A stretch of DNA of 45,827 bases from Thermoflexibacter ruber (GTDB taxonomy: Bacteria > Bacteroidota > Bacteroidia > Cytophagales > Thermoflexibacteraceae), in the NCBI RefSeq assembly GCF_900113045.1, contig NZ_FONY01000042.1, positions 1 to 45,827 on the forward strand, written 5' to 3'. The translations under genes were made by a program, and so were the position numbers. Below are positions 17,878 to 40,314 of this stretch, piece after piece; the first letter of the stretch is position 1; every line of letters begins with the position of its first letter. The notes beneath the pieces were generated by a model. The model made no database searches and was not told where the DNA came from. It saw only the letters and a list, made by a program, of their open reading frames with translations.

Positions 17878-19281
17878 TTATATTCCTTCAAATAACTGAT
17901 AGCTTTCCAAGTATTGTGGAATAAAAGTATTCCACCCTAATTTTTCTTTGATAGTTTTTGCCAAAGCCTCTGCACTTTCTTTTTCACCATGCACGATAAA
18001 AGTATTCTTGGGTGCTTCTTGGAAAGAAGACAACCACTCGAATAACTCTTCAGAGTCTGCGTGGGCAGATAAACCGTCCAGTTTAGTAACTTTGCATTTC
18101 ACAGGTACAAACTCACCAAATATTCTGACTTCTGGTTCGCCGTTTAGTATGCGTCTGCCTCGCGTACCTTCGCCCTGATAGCCGACAAAAAGCAATGTAT
18201 CGTTTTCTCTGGGTAAGCGGTGGTATAAATGATGCAAAATACGCCCACCTGTTGCCATACCACTCGCCGAGATAATAATTGCATTGGATTTAATGTCGTT
18301 GATTTGCATAGAAGCCTGCTGTTCGTGGCAGTAGTAAAGATTATCAAAATCAAAAGGTTCATTATCCTCCTCGAACAAAGAGGCTTTGCACAAGTCTTTA
18401 TTTTTATTGTAAATGTCCGTAGCGTTCATAGCCATAGGACTATCTATGAAAACACGACAAGGAGAAATTTTATGTGCCTTGAATAGTTGTTTTAGGTAGT
18501 AAAGAATAGCCTGTGTTCTCCCCAATGCAAACGCTGGAATAAGTATGCAGCCGTTGTAATACAAAGTTTCATTGATGATGCTGGCTAAGTCTGCTCTTGG
18601 GTCTTGGTCTGTAAGGTTGCGATTCCCGTAAGTAGATTCTACAAACAAGAAATCTGCCTCAGCAATCTTTTTAGGGGGATACAGCACAGGGTCATTAGAC
18701 CTTCCCAAATCACCAGAAAAGACAATTTTCTTGTTCATCTGATTGCCTTTCAAGAATAGTTCTATGATGCCCGCTCCTAAAATATGCCCTGCGTATTGGT
18801 AGCGAAAAGAAACCTGCTCGTTTAAGAAAAATTCTTTTTCAAAAGGAATACCTACTAATAAAGGCAAAACCATATCCACATCTTTCAGCGTATAGAGAGG
18901 TTGTGGCTTGTCATGCTTAGAATACTGCTTGTGTTCGGCGTACTGAGCTTCTTCCTCTTGGAGTTTTGCTGCATCTTTGAGCATCATAGGAATCAAATCC
19001 AGAGAAGCATCTGTACAGTAAATCGCTCCTCTAAACCCTTGCTTGCATAGTCTTGGCAAGTAGCCGATGTGGTCTATATGCGCATGGGTAAGTAAGATAG
19101 CATCTATACTATCGGGATTGATAGGGAAGGGACTCCAATTTTTGAGGCGGTCTTCTTTTTTGCCTTGGAAAAGCCCACAATCTATCAAGAGGCGAAAACT
19201 ATCAATGTCTAACAGGTACTTAGAACCTGTAACTATCTGTGCCGCACCAAGAAATTTGACAGATACGTCCATTAGTTTCAT
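17878..19281 (-). CDS. Beta-CASP metallo-beta-lactamase-fold hydrolase (RNA-processing type)
   Basis: A 467-residue protein with the metal motif LLTHAHIDHIGYLPRL (HxHxDH), an upstream DCGLFQGKK block and YQYAGHILGAGIIEL for the next His. FSGDLGR carries the bridging Asp. The beta-CASP part shows FIDSPMAMNATDIY, IIISASGMATGGRILHHL and a C-terminal VHGEKESAEAL His. This is the YsxA/CPSF73-like group of predicted RNA nucleases, distinct from RNase J. An ATG three codons in (19272) is also possible. It is transcribed leftward from the long 19282-19584 spacer and followed by the ABC ATPase. Confidence 0.88.
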   Translation of the reverse strand: MKLMDVSVKFLGAAQIVTGSKYLLDIDSFRLLIDCGLFQGKKEDRLKNWSPFPINPDSIDAILLTHAHIDHIGYLPRLCKQGFRGAIYCTDASLDLIPMMLKDAAKLQEEEAQYAEHKQYSKHDKPQPLYTLKDVDMVLPLLVGIPFEKEFFLNEQVSFRYQYAGHILGAGIIELFLKGNQMNKKIVFSGDLGRSNDPVLYPPKKIAEADFLFVESTYGNRNLTDQDPRADLASIINETLYYNGCILIPAFALGRTQAILYYLKQLFKAHKISPCRVFIDSPMAMNATDIYNKNKDLCKASLFEEDNEPFDFDNLYYCHEQQASMQINDIKSNAIIISASGMATGGRILHHLYHRLPRENDTLLFVGYQGEGTRGRRILNGEPEVRIFGEFVPVKCKVTKLDGLSAHADSEELFEWLSSFQEAPKNTFIVHGEKESAEALAKTIKEKLGWNTFIPQYLESYQLFEGI

Positions 19282-19584
19282 GTTTATTTTTTATGACAGT
19301 ATCGTAAAAGTATAGCTAAATTTTGAAAAGAGTAAGAATTTGAGAAATAAAATTAATTCAGTGCCTTTACATAGTATTCGTATGCAATTATACTCACAGA
19401 TGACAGGTTTGGCAAACCTATTCGGTGTAAAAGATTGATAATAATATTTTTTATTTGCAAACTCATTTTGTTTAGGCATATATCTGTCATATACCCTTTT
19501 TCTCAGGATAATCTTGAATAGGATTGCAATTTTCTAATTTAAAAAAAACTCCTATTTTTTTCTAAAAAATACAATTTTTACTTG
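19282..19584. other. Spacer with a short perfect hairpin
   Basis: About 300 nt upstream of the metallo-hydrolase. The only clear structure is AGGTTT-GGC-AAACCT (19405-19419), a 6 bp stem with a 3-base loop. A 62-codon ORF on the minus strand (19479-19291) covers it, but its product has no recognisable domain and an unconvincing composition, so it is not called. No tRNA or known riboswitch is recognised. Confidence 0.35.
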
Positions 19585-19592
19585 TACTTTTG
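19585..19592 (+). promoter_or_regulatory. Candidate -7 element TACTTTTG of the arginine operon
   Basis: TACTTTTG matches TAnnTTTG and sits 20 nt before the leader ORF start at 19612, which would begin just behind the transcription start. The -33 position is only T-rich, without a clear TTTG. Confidence 0.45.
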
Positions 19593-19611
19593 TCAAGTTT
19601 TTAAAATACAG

Positions 19612-19707
19612 ATGAAGCATTTTTTAGCACATAGTTTTTCATATCCTTCTACTCCTCGCTTGCATTCAAGGCAAGTTTTACGCAGGAACTTCTATAGGCG
19701 ACCCTAA
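19612..19707 (+). CDS. Candidate arginine leader peptide
   Basis: A 31-residue ORF beginning MKHFLAHSFSYPSTPRLHSR, with six Arg residues, all in the last 16 positions (residues 16, 20, 24, 25, 29, 30), followed by Pro and TAA. It lies between a TAnnTTTG promoter element and the GNAT-argG genes of arginine synthesis, 206 nt upstream of the GNAT start. Clustering of the pathway's own product at the end of a short ORF is the hallmark of attenuation leaders such as those of his or trp operons. The Arg codons are CGC, AGG, CGC, AGG, AGG and CGA. The coding status is inferred from composition and position only. Confidence 0.5.
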   Translation: MKHFLAHSFSYPSTPRLHSRQVLRRNFYRRP

Positions 19708-19710
19708 TGT

Positions 19711-19802
19711 GGGAAGATTTTTCTTTTAAAGTTTCACGTTCCCTTTTTATCATATTTTTTTCTTCTTAAAAGCACAGCGTTTTAACGACCAATCGTTTTT
19801 TT
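19711..19802 (+). promoter_or_regulatory. Possible attenuator structures between leader ORF and GNAT gene
   Basis: GGGAA (19711-19715) can pair with TTCCC (19739-19743), which is followed by TTTTT. The same GGG can instead pair with CCC at 19702-19704 at the end of the leader ORF. AACGA-CCAA-TCGTT (19784-19797) is a second small hairpin, followed by TTTTT. Inside the leader, CTTGC (19659-19663) pairs with GCAAG (19671-19675). The stems are short (5 bp), so terminator function is uncertain. Confidence 0.35.
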
Positions 19803-19913
19803 GAAGGTTTTTATTTGTAATTTTCTTGTCTTAGTGTTTGGACTTTCATGTTTGTATTTTAAAACTTTTAAAAAATCTCGAGTAAAAATTTTCTAATTTG
19901 GTTAAAAATTAAA

Positions 19914-20714
19914 ATGGAATTTATTGTTCAGGTTGCCACAGAAAAACATTTAGAATACGCAGAAACCATTTGCAAAGAAATGGAAGAGTCAGCACGCCAA
20001 CGTGGTACAGGTATTGCAAAAAGAGACCCTGAGTATATTAGGCAAAAAATGCGTGAAGGAAAAGCTATCATCGCTTTGAGAGAAGACGGTGCATGGGCAG
20101 GTTTTTGCTACATAGAAACGTGGAGTCATGCCAAATACGTGGCAAACTCTGGTCTAATCGTCAATCCTGAATTTAGAAAGTTTGGTTTAGCTACACGTAT
20201 CAAGCAGGTAGCTTTTAACTTGTCGCGTGAGAAATATCCTGAAGCTAAGCTATTTGGCTTGACTACAAGCTCGGCTGTTATGAAAATCAACTCTGAACTT
20301 GGATATCGTCCTGTTACCCTTCCTGAACTCACTGACGATGAGCAGTTTTGGAAAGGTTGTCAGAGTTGTGTAAACTACGACATCTTGACCCGCATGAACC
20401 GCAAGCACTGCCTCTGCGTAGGCATGTTGTACGACCCTGCCGAGCATCAGAAAACACAAAATGAGCAGGTACAACTTCCTGAAAAAGAGGCAGTAAATGG
20501 GGCAGGTACTACTCAGAATGGAAAAAAGAAAAAGCGAATAGGACGGATTTTGAGCCAAGGAAGAATCAACTTTAATGAAAAAAGAAAACTTTTTGAGAGG
20601 TGGCTTAGAATCAAAGCGAATATTTTGCTTAAAAGATTCAAAAAAGAAGAAAATGGCAAAAATGGCAACGGCTCAGGCATCAAACAAAAACAAAAAGAAG
20701 TAGTGGAAGTGTAA
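19914..20714 (+). CDS. GNAT N-acetyltransferase linked to arginine synthesis
   Basis: A 266-residue protein. Residues 1-145 form a GNAT fold with the acetyl-CoA loop region NPEFRKFGLATRIKQVAF. A Cys-bearing block (GCQSCVNYD and KHCLCVGML) and a C-terminal tail of about 80 residues rich in Lys and Arg (GKKKKRIGRILSQGRI) follow. Bacteroidota commonly have such a GNAT directly before argG, where it is proposed to do the N-acetylglutamate synthase step. Here argG follows after 46 nt, which supports that role by context. The basic tail is unusual for a metabolic acyltransferase. Paired Cys (C-x2-C and C-x-C) could bind a metal. Regulation by the arginine leader upstream is inferred. Confidence 0.8.
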   Translation: MEFIVQVATEKHLEYAETICKEMEESARQRGTGIAKRDPEYIRQKMREGKAIIALREDGAWAGFCYIETWSHAKYVANSGLIVNPEFRKFGLATRIKQVAFNLSREKYPEAKLFGLTTSSAVMKINSELGYRPVTLPELTDDEQFWKGCQSCVNYDILTRMNRKHCLCVGMLYDPAEHQKTQNEQVQLPEKEAVNGAGTTQNGKKKKRIGRILSQGRINFNEKRKLFERWLRIKANILLKRFKKEENGKNGNGSGIKQKQKEVVEV

Positions 20715-20760
20715 GGCTTTAATTTCTAACTATTGAACTATCAAACAATAAAAAACTGAA

Positions 20761-21951
20761 ATGAAAGATAAAGTAGTGTTAGCATTCAGCGGAGGTTTAG
20801 ATACCTCTTACTGTGCTATTTACCTTAATAAAGAACTAAATTTAGAAGTTTATTCTGCCATAGTCAATACAGGCGGATTCAGCGAGGAGGAGCTTCAAGC
20901 TATTGAAAACAAAGCATATAGCTTAGGTGTAAGCAAGCACGTCAGTCTTGACCAGACCCAATACTACTATGATAAGTGCATTCGCTACATGATTTTTGGT
21001 AATGTACTTAGAAACAATACCTATCCGCTTTCTGTCAGTGCCGAGAGAATGTTTCAGGCACTGGCGATTGTACAGTATGCCAAGGAAGTAGGCGCCAAAT
21101 ACATAGCACATGGAAGCACAGGTGCGGGCAACGACCAAGTGCGTTTTGACTTGGTTTTCCAGATTCTTGCCCCTGAAATTCAGATTATTACCCCTATTCG
21201 TGATAAAAAGCTATCAAGAGAGGAAGAAATAGCATACCTCCAAAGCCATGGAGTTGTTGCCAACTGGGAAAAAGCCAAGTACTCTATCAATCAAGGAATT
21301 TGGGGAACAAGCGTAGGCGGAAAGGAAACTTTGACCTCTCACTTACCTTTGCCCGAAGAAGCCTACCCAAGCCAACTAAAACGCACCGATAGCCAAGAAA
21401 TAGAAATTACTTTTGAAAAGGGAGAACCTGTAGCCCTCAATGGCAAGCTATTAGGAAGCGTAGCGGTTATCCAAGAACTTGCTAAAACTGCTTCTGAGTA
21501 TGCGATTGGACGAGATATTCATATCGGCGACACAATCATTGGCATTAAGGGAAGGGTTGGCTTTGAAGCACCCGCCTCTCTCATTACTATCAAAGCACAC
21601 CACGCACTTGAAAAACATACTTTGACCAAGTGGCAGATGTATTGGAAAGAGCAGTTGGGAAATTGGTACGGAATGCTGCTCCATGAAGGGCAGTATTTGG
21701 AACCTGTGATGCGAAACGTAGAAACTTTTTTAGAAGATACGCAGAAAAATGTAAGCGGAAAAGTAAAAGTAAAACTCATGCCATACCGCTTTGAAATTCA
21801 GGGCATAGAGTCGCCACACGATTTGATGTCTGCCAAATTTGGTTCGTATGGTGAAATGAACAATGCTTGGACAGGCGAGGACGTAAAAGGCTTTACCAAG
21901 ATAATAGGCAACCAGATGAAGATTTATTATCAGGTGAATAATTCGCAATAA
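20761..21951 (+). CDS. argG: Argininosuccinate synthase
   Basis: A 396-residue enzyme joining citrulline and aspartate with ATP to make argininosuccinate. The N-terminal PP-loop is VVLAFSGGLDTSYC (residues 5-18). Further conserved blocks are YIAHGSTGAGNDQVRFDLVF and IGIKGRVGFEAPASLITIKA. Length is normal for the short form of the enzyme. It lies 46 nt after the GNAT gene and is probably in the same transcript under the arginine-rich leader. The other arg genes are not in the window; the next gene is an unrelated lipoprotein with its own promoter, so the operon seems to end here. Confidence 0.96.
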   Translation: MKDKVVLAFSGGLDTSYCAIYLNKELNLEVYSAIVNTGGFSEEELQAIENKAYSLGVSKHVSLDQTQYYYDKCIRYMIFGNVLRNNTYPLSVSAERMFQALAIVQYAKEVGAKYIAHGSTGAGNDQVRFDLVFQILAPEIQIITPIRDKKLSREEEIAYLQSHGVVANWEKAKYSINQGIWGTSVGGKETLTSHLPLPEEAYPSQLKRTDSQEIEITFEKGEPVALNGKLLGSVAVIQELAKTASEYAIGRDIHIGDTIIGIKGRVGFEAPASLITIKAHHALEKHTLTKWQMYWKEQLGNWYGMLLHEGQYLEPVMRNVETFLEDTQKNVSGKVKVKLMPYRFEIQGIESPHDLMSAKFGSYGEMNNAWTGEDVKGFTKIIGNQMKIYYQVNNSQ

Positions 21952-37317: not shown

Positions 37318-40314
37318 CTATTCCATCACTCCGCACTTGCACTGAATCCCTAACTTTTTGCTTAGTTCTTCTATGTCCGTATAATCTCCCCTCATGTTAG
37401 GGCGTTGTGTAGGTGCGCCGCCCTTTTTTGCATTGACCATCTTCTGAATAAGACGATTACGTTCTGCATTGATTTCCTCTCTGAGTTGTTTATCTCTGTC
37501 TATGTCATAGTAAAGTACGCCATCTACAAAGGTTTTTTCTGCTTTAGCATAAATAGAAAGTGGGTTATCAGACCAAAGCACTACATCTGCATCTTTGCCT
37601 ACTTTGATGCTGCCTGTACGATTGTCCAAGTGTAACATTTTCGCAGGATTCAAAGTAACCATTTTCAAGGCATCTTCCTCTGACATTCCACCGTATTTGA
37701 CTGACTTGGCAGCTTCTTGGTTCAGGCGGCGAGCCATTTCTGCGTCATCAGAGTTGATAGCCGTAATAACGCCTGCATTGGTCAATAAAACAGGGTTGTA
37801 AGGAATGGCATCATATACTTCAAATTTGTAGCCCCACCAATCAGAGAAAGAGGAAGCCGCTACACCATGTTTTTGCATTTTGTCAGCTACCTTGTAGCCT
37901 TCTAAGATGTGAGTAAAGGTATTCACTTTGAAGCCAAACTGCTCGGCTACTTTCATTAGCATATTGATTTCTGACTGCACGTAGGAGTGGCAAGTAATAA
38001 ATCTTTTCTTGTTGAGTATTTCTGCCAAAGCCTCTAATTGCAAATCTTTTCTTGTTTGAGTAGGGTTTGCTTTCATATTTTTGTCGTATTCCCTTGCTCT
38101 GGTAAAGCCCTCGACATAAATCTGCTCTACGCCCATGCGCGTATTGGGGAAACGAGTAATGTTACCGCCAAAAGTACGTCCACGCTTTACATTTTCGCCC
38201 AAAGCAAACTTAATAAAGCCATCTGCACCCTCGATTTTCATTTTCTCAGGAGAAAGTCCCCAACGGAATTTGACGATAGCCGACTGCCCACCTACCGCAT
38301 TGGCAGAGCCATGCAACAACTGCGCCCCAATCACTCCCCCTGAAAGTTGGCGATAAATATTAATCGCCTCAGAATTAATGACATCGCCCATGCGAACCTC
38401 AGAACTAAGCGAATAAGTAAACTCATTTACTCCGTCCAAAGCGATGTGAGAGTGTTCGTCAATGATACCTGCGCTGAGGTGCTTGCCTGTACCGTCTATG
38501 ACTTTCGCTCCTGTGGCAGAGAGATTCTGACCTATTTTCTCTATTTTCCCATTATTAATCAGCACATCTGTATTTTTCAAAATGCCTTCTTTTTCATTTG
38601 TCCAAACGGTTGCATTTTTTATCAATACCATTTCTGCCTTAGGCACTTCAGGCAAGCCGTAAGCAGAAAAAGGAAAAGTAACCTTGCCTAATTCGGGAGC
38701 TTTGGTATCTTTCTTAGCTTCGTCTTTTTTGGTTTCTTCTTTGGGTTCTCCTGTTTTCTCTGCTACCCAAGCCAGCCATTTACCATTTTCATCTTGCCCT
38801 TCGCCGTACAGTTTGCCATCTATTACTCCTGTCAAACGAACCTTTTTATTGTTTCTGTCAAAAGTCAAAGTAAGCAATTTGCCGTCTATGCTTCCGCTGG
38901 TTGTGTATTTGATAGTGTCTTTATTTACCTTAAAATCAGGCTTTTCCGCTTTCCCGCTAATGCTCAAACTCAATAGCTCATTGCCAAAAGTAAGTTTGTA
39001 CCCGCCTCTGATGTCTGTAACATTCATGTCATTGATGATGTAGCGATTACCTTGTACCCAGTTTTCGTAAATGGTATTTTCCTTGTCAAAAAGTTCTTTG
39101 GAAGTAATCAAGAAGTTAGCAACCATTCCCTTTTTCAAACTACCTACAATATTTTCCGCGCCTACAAGTTTGGCAGGAGTATAAGTTACTGCTTTCAAGG
39201 CAGTTTGCTTGTCTAAGCCATATTCTATGGCTTGTTGGATATTTTTGATAAAATCGCTTTTATTTTTCAAACCATCTGCGGTAAAGGCAAACTCTATACC
39301 TGCCTTTGCCAAAACACTTGGGTTGGTAGGGGCAAGTTCCCAATGTTTCATGTTTGCCAAAGAAACCAACTTGGCATCGTAGGGGTCTTCTACATCATAA
39401 GCCTCAGGGAAATTCACAGGCAAAATAAAAGAGGCTTTGCTTGCTTTGATTTCATCAATAAGTTGGTACTCATCTCCTGAGCCTTTGATAATGAATTGCT
39501 TGCCAAACTCATCACCAATTTTGTCAGCACGAAGCGCATTGAGTTTGTTATTCACCGCAAAGATTTGAGGAAGGGCAAGGTTTTTATTGAAATAATCCAA
39601 AGAAATATTGTACTCTAAGGTATTTCCAAAGTTTTTGTACCAAATTCCATCGTAAAAAGTTTGCCTGAGCAGGGCAATGTAACCCATTTGAGAGGTTGGA
39701 TACACCTGCGTACTTGTGCCTTTGTCGAAAGAATAGTAGGCAGCAGTTTCACCCTTTAATACTGTTTTTTGCTCTTTCTCATCAGATAAACTTACCAAAA
39801 CTCCTGTTCCCCTAACTACTCCGTCCATCAAATGCGTAGAAACCGCTCCAAAGCCTATATCTCTTAAAGATTTGGCATTCGCTGAGTTAGCATTAAAAAG
39901 TTCATTGCCTTTGGTTTCAGGCTTGACCGCTTCGTTGGCGTTGAATGCTCCCTTCTTTTTAGAAAGAAACTCTCCACTTGCAAAAAAGCCTCTTGCCCCT
40001 TGGGGTTTAGGCTGCTCGATTCCGTAGTCAGAGAAAATATCGACCATAGAAGGATAGATGTATTTCCCTTTGAGGTCTATGACCATTGCACCTTGTGGTA
40101 TAGGCAAGTTCGTACCAACTGCCTCTACTTTTCCTTTGACCACCACCAATGTACTATTAACCATAGTAGTTTGATAATCCACTACCACATTGGCATTGGT
40201 AAAAACATAGATTTCTGGTCGCTTGTCCTGCGCTCCATTGACTGGGTGCGTTTCTTGGGCAGAAACGTGCAGGACTATCATTAAAAACAAGAGTGTAGAT
40301 AAAAAATGCTTCAT
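37318..40314 (-). CDS. Secreted double amidohydrolase with one degenerate half
   Basis: A protein of about 998 residues with a signal peptide (MKHFLSTLLFLMIVLHVSAQ). It consists of two amidohydrolase-like units in tandem, joined by a region with Lys/Glu-rich KEETKKDEAKKDTKAPE. The second unit has a metal-binding HxH in GIIDEHSHIALDG, a His in RFITCHSY, another in NTFTHILEGY and the Asp region AINSDDAEMARRL. The first unit has VDIFSDYGIE where HxH would be, so it probably lacks the metal centre. Its end (TYTPAKLVGAENIVGSLKKG) is still amidohydrolase-like. The ATG at 40314 is used because it starts the signal peptide. The substrate, perhaps a peptide or cyclic amide, is unknown. Confidence 0.88.
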   Translation of the reverse strand: MKHFLSTLLFLMIVLHVSAQETHPVNGAQDKRPEIYVFTNANVVVDYQTTMVNSTLVVVKGKVEAVGTNLPIPQGAMVIDLKGKYIYPSMVDIFSDYGIEQPKPQGARGFFASGEFLSKKKGAFNANEAVKPETKGNELFNANSANAKSLRDIGFGAVSTHLMDGVVRGTGVLVSLSDEKEQKTVLKGETAAYYSFDKGTSTQVYPTSQMGYIALLRQTFYDGIWYKNFGNTLEYNISLDYFNKNLALPQIFAVNNKLNALRADKIGDEFGKQFIIKGSGDEYQLIDEIKASKASFILPVNFPEAYDVEDPYDAKLVSLANMKHWELAPTNPSVLAKAGIEFAFTADGLKNKSDFIKNIQQAIEYGLDKQTALKAVTYTPAKLVGAENIVGSLKKGMVANFLITSKELFDKENTIYENWVQGNRYIINDMNVTDIRGGYKLTFGNELLSLSISGKAEKPDFKVNKDTIKYTTSGSIDGKLLTLTFDRNNKKVRLTGVIDGKLYGEGQDENGKWLAWVAEKTGEPKEETKKDEAKKDTKAPELGKVTFPFSAYGLPEVPKAEMVLIKNATVWTNEKEGILKNTDVLINNGKIEKIGQNLSATGAKVIDGTGKHLSAGIIDEHSHIALDGVNEFTYSLSSEVRMGDVINSEAINIYRQLSGGVIGAQLLHGSANAVGGQSAIVKFRWGLSPEKMKIEGADGFIKFALGENVKRGRTFGGNITRFPNTRMGVEQIYVEGFTRAREYDKNMKANPTQTRKDLQLEALAEILNKKRFITCHSYVQSEINMLMKVAEQFGFKVNTFTHILEGYKVADKMQKHGVAASSFSDWWGYKFEVYDAIPYNPVLLTNAGVITAINSDDAEMARRLNQEAAKSVKYGGMSEEDALKMVTLNPAKMLHLDNRTGSIKVGKDADVVLWSDNPLSIYAKAEKTFVDGVLYYDIDRDKQLREEINAERNRLIQKMVNAKKGGAPTQRPNMRGDYTDIEELSKKLGIQCKCGVME

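Follow-up and report, generated by a model that had tools for sequence, protein, structure and literature searches.

A putative arginine-specific leader-peptide attenuator upstream of the GNAT-argG unit of Thermoflexibacter ruber

Described leader peptides and the locus of Thermoflexibacter ruber

In the ribosome-mediated attenuation of the enterobacterial his and trp operons, a promoter is followed by a short open reading frame (ORF) that contains codons for the regulated amino acid, and hairpins are located after this ORF. Arginine operons are textbook targets of ArgR.

Leaders with Arg codons have been described on other genes. In the Salmonella orf34-speF system, ribosomes are reported to slow down at the Arg codons of a short ORF when arginine is low, with an involvement of Rho (PMC6386406). 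Likewise, the rbfL leader of Staphylococcus aureus, which has a rare Arg codon, is described in the corresponding passages as a sensor of arginine restriction (PMC13009471). Both differ from the leader presented in this study: the speF system controls ornithine decarboxylase, encodes a conserved DUF2618 peptide, and transmits the effect of arginine via RNase G and mRNA structure (PMC6386406), whereas rbfL has two Arg codons and represses a biofilm regulator by covering the ribosome-binding site, so that low arginine lowers expression (PMC13009471). Both systems show that leaders with Arg codons are able to sense arginine, although for different genes and along different routes. For Flavobacterium psychrophilum, a transcriptome study reports strong indications that amino-acid operons are preceded by leader-peptide attenuators; these 5' regions share the phylum and the proposed type of mechanism with the present leader, but the passages on them do not name arginine (PMC9723704). 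In the titles and abstract openings of the open-licence PMC literature, no arginine leader of an arginine-synthesis operon is described in Bacteroidota, and by this literature we judge the leader to be a new arginine-specific case of ribosome-mediated attenuation.

The window, i.e., the whole stretch of 45,827 nucleotides of T. ruber DNA that was analysed, contains the following features around the leader:

19585..19592, + strand: TACTTTTG, candidate -7 promoter box (TAnnTTTG), the single strict match on the + strand within 18094-21344
19612..19707, + strand: leader ORF of 31 amino acids, six Arg codons among the last 16, stop codon TAA
19657..19701, + strand: stretch of Arg control codons (CGC, AGG, CGC, AGG, AGG, CGA), read directly
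19914..20714, + strand: GNAT-family acetyltransferase (PF00583), the first gene of the unit
20761..21951, + strand: argG, argininosuccinate synthase (PF00764 and PF20979; TIGR00032 above the cut-off)

As read directly from the sequence, the leader ORF begins with ATG and its 31 codons translate to MKHFLAHSFSYPSTPRLHSRQVLRRNFYRRP*, in which the Arg codons listed above are, in order, codons 16, 20, 24, 25, 29, and 30, and the C-terminus is Arg-Arg-Pro-stop. The original prediction of a 31-codon ORF with six Arg codons in its last 16 positions upstream of GNAT-argG is borne out by this reading of 19612-19707, and its placement of the ORF close behind a TAnnTTTG element is also correct, with a gap of 19 nt between the box and the ATG. 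The leader stop codon and the GNAT start codon are 206 nt apart. A short ORF with codons for the regulated amino acid before the genes for its biosynthesis is one of the marks by which attenuation is recognized, and as judged from the sequence the window carries this mark; coding selection is seen in the relatives only. Among 20,000 dinucleotide shuffles of 19282-19913, none had an ATG ORF of 12-60 amino acids with at least six Arg in the last 16 codons, while 7 reached five and 116 reached four. The two strands of the window hold 422 ORFs of 12-60 amino acids, and besides the leader only one has at least six Arg; it is on the minus strand (38714-38779, seven Arg), inside a 1024-amino-acid ORF that is read from this strand in a different frame.

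In the genome of the window, argC is on a different contig from GNAT-argG, and no ORF with at least four Arg was found within 500 nt upstream of argC, where a 14-amino-acid ORF with three Arg ends 308 nt away. The Arg leader appears to stand at the head of a short unit of GNAT and argG. This genome has no ArgR (PF01316), with control genomes positive, and an ArgR-controlled arginine operon was therefore rejected as a description of the locus. At the gathering cut-off of Rfam 15 the window gave three tRNAs only and no match to a leader family, and a search of ten loci at E up to 1 gave a single chance-level match distant from the leader; because no covariance model matches the leader, its assignment to a known Rfam family was rejected.

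Arg leaders and ArgR in related genomes

The upstream regions of GNAT were scored in two unselected sets. The first comprises 80 named loci and the family of the window, gathered by the GNAT protein, which gave 91 loci after the removal of duplicates and one presumed repeat. Each amino acid was scored by its top count in the last 16 codons of any ATG ORF of 12-60 amino acids within 500 nt upstream. For Arg, the mean score of 3.04 exceeded both the shuffle mean of 1.42 (z = 16.4) and the reverse-strand mean of 1.56. A count of four or more Arg was reached at 41 of the 91 loci (reverse strand, 5 of 91; expected in shuffles, 2.7), and at least three at 66 (reverse strand, 18; shuffles, 12.3). Pro ranked second (z = 8.3), and every other amino acid had a z of at most 4. 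The second set was taken from a phylum sample of 296 Bacteroidota genomes with a completeness of at least 90%, in 124 of which the GNAT profile matched with an E of 1e-40 or less; 100 of the 124 upstream regions were scored. Here, at least four Arg were found at 49 loci against 6.1 expected and at least three at 68 against 18.6 expected, and 51 loci remained below four.

Counts of at least four Arg are frequent in f24, which belongs to another class (21/21), f8 (10/18), f2 (5/7), and f5 (4/7), whereas f7 (0/4), f12 (0/2), f25 (2/8, 1.5 expected), and f38 (0/3) have little or no Arg excess. No leader was seen upstream of GNAT at five named loci (L036, L045, and the three Flavobacterium loci L046, L089, and L092). 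A lack of conservation in relatives, which the original prediction named as one outcome that would speak against it, did not occur, as 41/91 and 49/100 loci carry an Arg-codon ORF; on these sequence comparisons the arginine-leader reading is strongly supported.

Of the 13 genomes searched in the family of the window, 12 carry the GNAT. The leaders end in RRP (G006, G007, and G009), PRP (G008 and G012), ARKP, PVRV, PMRA, or PSRV; that of G008 has two Arg only, and in G003 the leader stops 380 nt short of GNAT. The congener G011 has a 15-amino-acid leader with two Arg. In the congener G010 (62% complete), no leader was found before GNAT: a TATTTTTG box approximately 45 nt before the gene leaves no room behind it, and GTG-start ORFs with four Arg are located farther upstream. 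The 100 nt before GNAT in this genome (L003) look like a leader loss within the same genus, and the two congeners together suggest a rapid change of the leader element.

Several relatives show variants of this region. At six loci of f8 (L161, L165, L169, L171, L175, and L182), an Arg-rich short ORF, mostly ending in RRR, lies approximately 220-280 nt before GNAT, and closer to GNAT most of these loci have another CGC-CC stretch, accompanied by a GCCC-GTAA-GGG-like hairpin, so that the elements may be in tandem. In G083, G228, and G264 (f23), the GNAT domain is within an open frame of approximately 590-630 amino acids, a possible fusion. L030, on a contig labelled Beijerinckiaceae, is probably misbinned, as its GNAT is Bacteroidota-like and its Arg leader (RRPRI) resembles those of Chitinophaga.

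Selection, codon usage, the promoter box, and RNA structure were analysed at loci picked for carrying an Arg-rich ORF, many of them from close relatives, so that these counts describe chosen leaders. In eight partly overlapping sets of relatives' leaders, pN/pS was 0.41-0.77 in the leader frame, the lowest of the three frames in every set. The 267 Arg codons of the chosen leaders include 83 CGA (21.1 expected) and 93 AGG (39.2 expected) but only 33 CGT and CGC (121.1 expected), where the expectation is derived from ATG ORFs of at least 200 amino acids at the same loci. Rare Arg codons would raise the sensitivity of the sensor.

At 19 of 91 chosen loci (21%), the 60 nt in front of the leader ATG contain a strict TAnnTTTG box, compared with 1.4% of 348 control windows taken downstream of the leader, and the looser nAnnTTTG occurs there at 50 of the 91 compared with 6.3%. 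Directly before the GNAT ATG, the strict and looser forms were present at 1/91 and 6/91 chosen loci, respectively. In the window, the + strand has no strict box between the leader and GNAT, and the expected place of the -33 element, 14-30 nt ahead of the box, has no TTG. This placement of the box agrees with a transcript that starts upstream of the leader.

The his pathway served as a matched control. HisG was searched in 30 genomes, most of which are behind the arg loci used; 29 have HisG, and 25 have a readable upstream region. At least four His in the last 20 codons of an ORF were found in 16 of the 25 regions and at least four Arg in none. Since hisG regions have His leaders and lack Arg leaders, the codon bias tracks the pathway, as attenuation predicts. 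Similar to the Arg leaders, these His leaders have a C-terminal run of control codons, and several have a stop-codon hairpin of the CCTCCTAAGGAGG type. At nine loci (L197, L199, L200, L203, L206, L209, L212, L213, and L225), a His leader precedes hisG, and most of these leaders end in HHFHHSS or HHIHHSS with a clear stop-codon hairpin. Upstream of hisG in the genome of the window, no His leader was found within 400 nt.

ArgR was found in none of the 48 searchable genomes of related loci and in 110 of the 296 genomes of the phylum sample. Four of the 124 GNAT carriers have an ArgR match, weak in G113 and G090 and strong in G290 and G298 (f12), and in the latter two, at which no Arg leader is visible, ArgR lies just before GNAT. 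The five matches of G090 to PF01316 are weak and identical in score, and perhaps come from a repeated mobile element rather than from ArgR. Because the five named loci with no visible leader also have no ArgR, the replacement of ArgR by the leader is a tendency and not a rule.

RNA structure behind the leader

Three sites that could form hairpins are located between the leader and GNAT in the window:

19702..19713, + strand: candidate hairpin H1 that spans the stop codon, CCC-TAATGT-GGG, 3 bp, non-significant alone, with a T-rich run behind it (19718-19727)
19738..19748, + strand: GTTCCC and T5, which might pair alternatively with 19711-19715 or with GGAAC in the leader; letters present, fold no better than shuffles
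19784..19802, + strand: AACGA-CCAA-TCGTT hairpin leading into a T-run, a weak terminator-like site; z of -1.29 for the surrounding 51 nt

The original prediction of alternative hairpins holds for the letters, i.e., CCC/GGG over the stop codon, GGGAA/TTCCC before T5, and AACGA/TCGTT before the T-run, but not for the folding, which is no better than that of shuffles. The z values are -0.11 for 19594-19913, -0.26 for 19685-19760, and -0.34 for 19698-19735; even 19765-19815, which encloses the third site, was equalled by 23 of 200 shuffles. With the fold of the region at shuffle level, working alternative hairpins are not supported in the window.

Structure is more evident in the relatives. Over 106 chosen loci, folding becomes stronger 10-30 nt past the stop codon (mean z of -0.8 to -1.2) and is lost at 50-60 nt; at 80-90 nt, a distance covered by 73-88 of the loci, it increases once more. 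A hairpin approximately 10-25 nt after the stop codon (H2) has a variable stem with compensatory changes and a loop near UNYGY in 27 chosen sequences, mostly from Cytophagales. It has 45 cells with both sides changed, compared with 14 in shuffles, and a covariation score of 0.632, which falls to 0.150 or less when the stem is slid, in an alignment in which some sequences were selected because H2 was visible; two further measures, the number of double-change pairs and the number of pair types, are not above the shuffles (177 and 61 of 500). In 16 of the 21 loci of f24, a long-range helix joins leader codons 8-10 with the stretch before GNAT (score 0.276, compared with 0.150 in shuffles), and it still scores 0.187 when slid by -1, which makes it the weaker evidence. 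The covariation of H2 and of the f24 helix does not demonstrate mutual exclusivity. The H2 loop CTACGTG resembles the anticodon loop of tRNA-Arg(ACG); anticodon mimicry was dropped as an interpretation, because the variants CTATGTG and TCCGT are found at the same place.

A hairpin straddling the stop codon is present at 42% of the 106 loci; the share is 25-30% for positions 24-60 nt upstream of it, and 48-53% for those 12-24 nt downstream. A universal stop-codon hairpin is not claimed, as it is clear by eye in several groups but only mildly enriched over the 106 loci. The clearest H1 in the family of the window is that of L006, with seven T behind it and a z of -3.4 for the region.

In a simple scan, a hairpin followed by a T-run was found at 29 of 113 arg leaders, compared with a mean of 10 in mononucleotide shuffles; among the 25 his upstream regions, 12 had one, compared with 2.9. 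The his and arg leaders differ in this respect: strong terminator-like hairpins are present in four his regions (L202, L210, L214, and L218), of which L202, L210, and L214 have a His leader, whereas the arg leaders of three of these genomes (L044, L070, and L153) have no such hairpin and that of the fourth (L072) has a weak one. In the hisG region L202, the leader CGGTAGG looks able to pair with CTTACCG of the terminator, a classic antiterminator layout. Intrinsic termination is thus plausible for some arg leaders and not visible from the sequence in most, and the caution in the original prediction about Rho or translational control was justified.

Proposed mechanism and alternative explanations

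From the sequence comparisons, we consider it quite likely that this region controls the GNAT-argG unit as a leader-peptide attenuator specific for arginine. As in the his and trp attenuators, an ORF with control codons precedes biosynthesis genes, with a candidate promoter box upstream and candidate hairpins behind. The differences are that this leader would sense arginine, that most loci have no clear U-tract terminator, and that the candidate antiterminator pairing in the window is weak and non-significant.

We infer for T. ruber a translated leader on which stalling turns the genes on. Transcription would start just upstream of the leader ORF, and the leader would be translated by ribosomes behind the advancing RNA polymerase. 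With charged arginine tRNA in short supply, the ribosome would stall at the terminal Arg codons and cover the start of the stop-spanning hairpin, the downstream RNA would fold or be protected, and transcription would reach GNAT-argG. When arginine is plentiful, the ribosome would finish and leave, the stop-codon hairpin and its neighbours would form, and transcription would stop prematurely, through either a weak intrinsic terminator or Rho. The stopping step is left between these two, since hairpins with T-runs occur at a minority of loci, the rho gene is present in the genome of the window, and C exceeds G behind the leader at most loci, though not in the window.

The version with Rho, a sub-case of the attenuator, is a real possibility, although we would place it somewhat short of even. 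It holds that there is no intrinsic terminator and that Rho loads on the untranslated, G-poor stretch between the leader and GNAT, from which it would be kept by the stalled ribosome or by an RNA structure that stalling favours. The 84 of 113 loci without a hairpin and T-run, the nearly unfolded RNA 50-60 nt after the stop codon, and the rho gene are in line with this version, and the passages on orf34-speF offer a precedent that combines Arg codons with Rho (PMC6386406). In the stretch in question, C exceeds G at 83 of 93 distinct loci, but in the window C (0.117) is below G (0.131), and C also exceeds G in the leader ORFs (76 of 94 rows) and in the 120 nt upstream (61 of 94 rows, L023 being counted twice among the rows). 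Rho loading as deduced from composition was therefore rejected, the signal being non-specific and absent in the window. The T-runs behind H1 in some relatives also argue against this version.

It is unlikely that the leader ribosome acts instead on translation or mRNA stability, by altering a fold that affects the translation or decay of GNAT rather than termination. Such routes are described in the passages on S. aureus rbfL, which acts on translation via pausing at Arg codons (PMC13009471), and on speF, where mRNA decay depends on such pausing (PMC6386406), and the scarcity of hairpins with T-runs would suit them. On the other hand, the leader stop codon is mostly 80-250 nt from the GNAT start, too far for cover by a ribosome, and there is little structure 50-60 nt after the stop codon; the renewed folding at 80-90 nt may have a role near the start site.

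A similarly low probability is given to a decayed remnant, in which the attenuator would work in relatives while the ORF of the window is non-functional in its genus. The insignificant hairpins of the window point in this direction, as do the congeners, one with no leader and the other with two Arg only, and the sole H2-like match of the window, which is AT-rich and lies 103 nt after the stop codon. However, the window has kept six Arg codons, a number reached in none of the 20,000 shuffles, together with an intact frame and the promoter box, and its CCC/GGG pair has a counterpart, ACC/GGT, in L017 (taken as the genome of G011).

A chance ORF in AT-rich intergenic DNA is very improbable, since short ORFs are indeed common in the window but neither the shuffles, nor the recurrence at the same gene, nor the frame-specific selection in relatives fits with chance.

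More tentatively still than the version with Rho, we propose that an old arginine attenuator is common to at least two classes of Bacteroidota, where it would do the job of ArgR in the absence of a canonical terminator. Stalling at rare codons near the leader end, the stop-codon hairpin, and the second hairpin (loop near UNYGY, in Cytophagales) might together decide between read-through and a Rho-type or protein-assisted termination.

The arginine leader recurs in many relatives, and through it the ribosome probably senses a shortage of arginine and turns the genes on. If this is true, a widespread arginine leader in genomes with no ArgR would mean that a large bacterial group controls its arginine pathway by translation instead. 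The leaders would also provide a natural set of sensors for how attenuation ends transcription where hairpins have no U-tracts, and they give a concrete prediction for culturable relatives, e.g., Mucilaginibacter or Chitinophaga.
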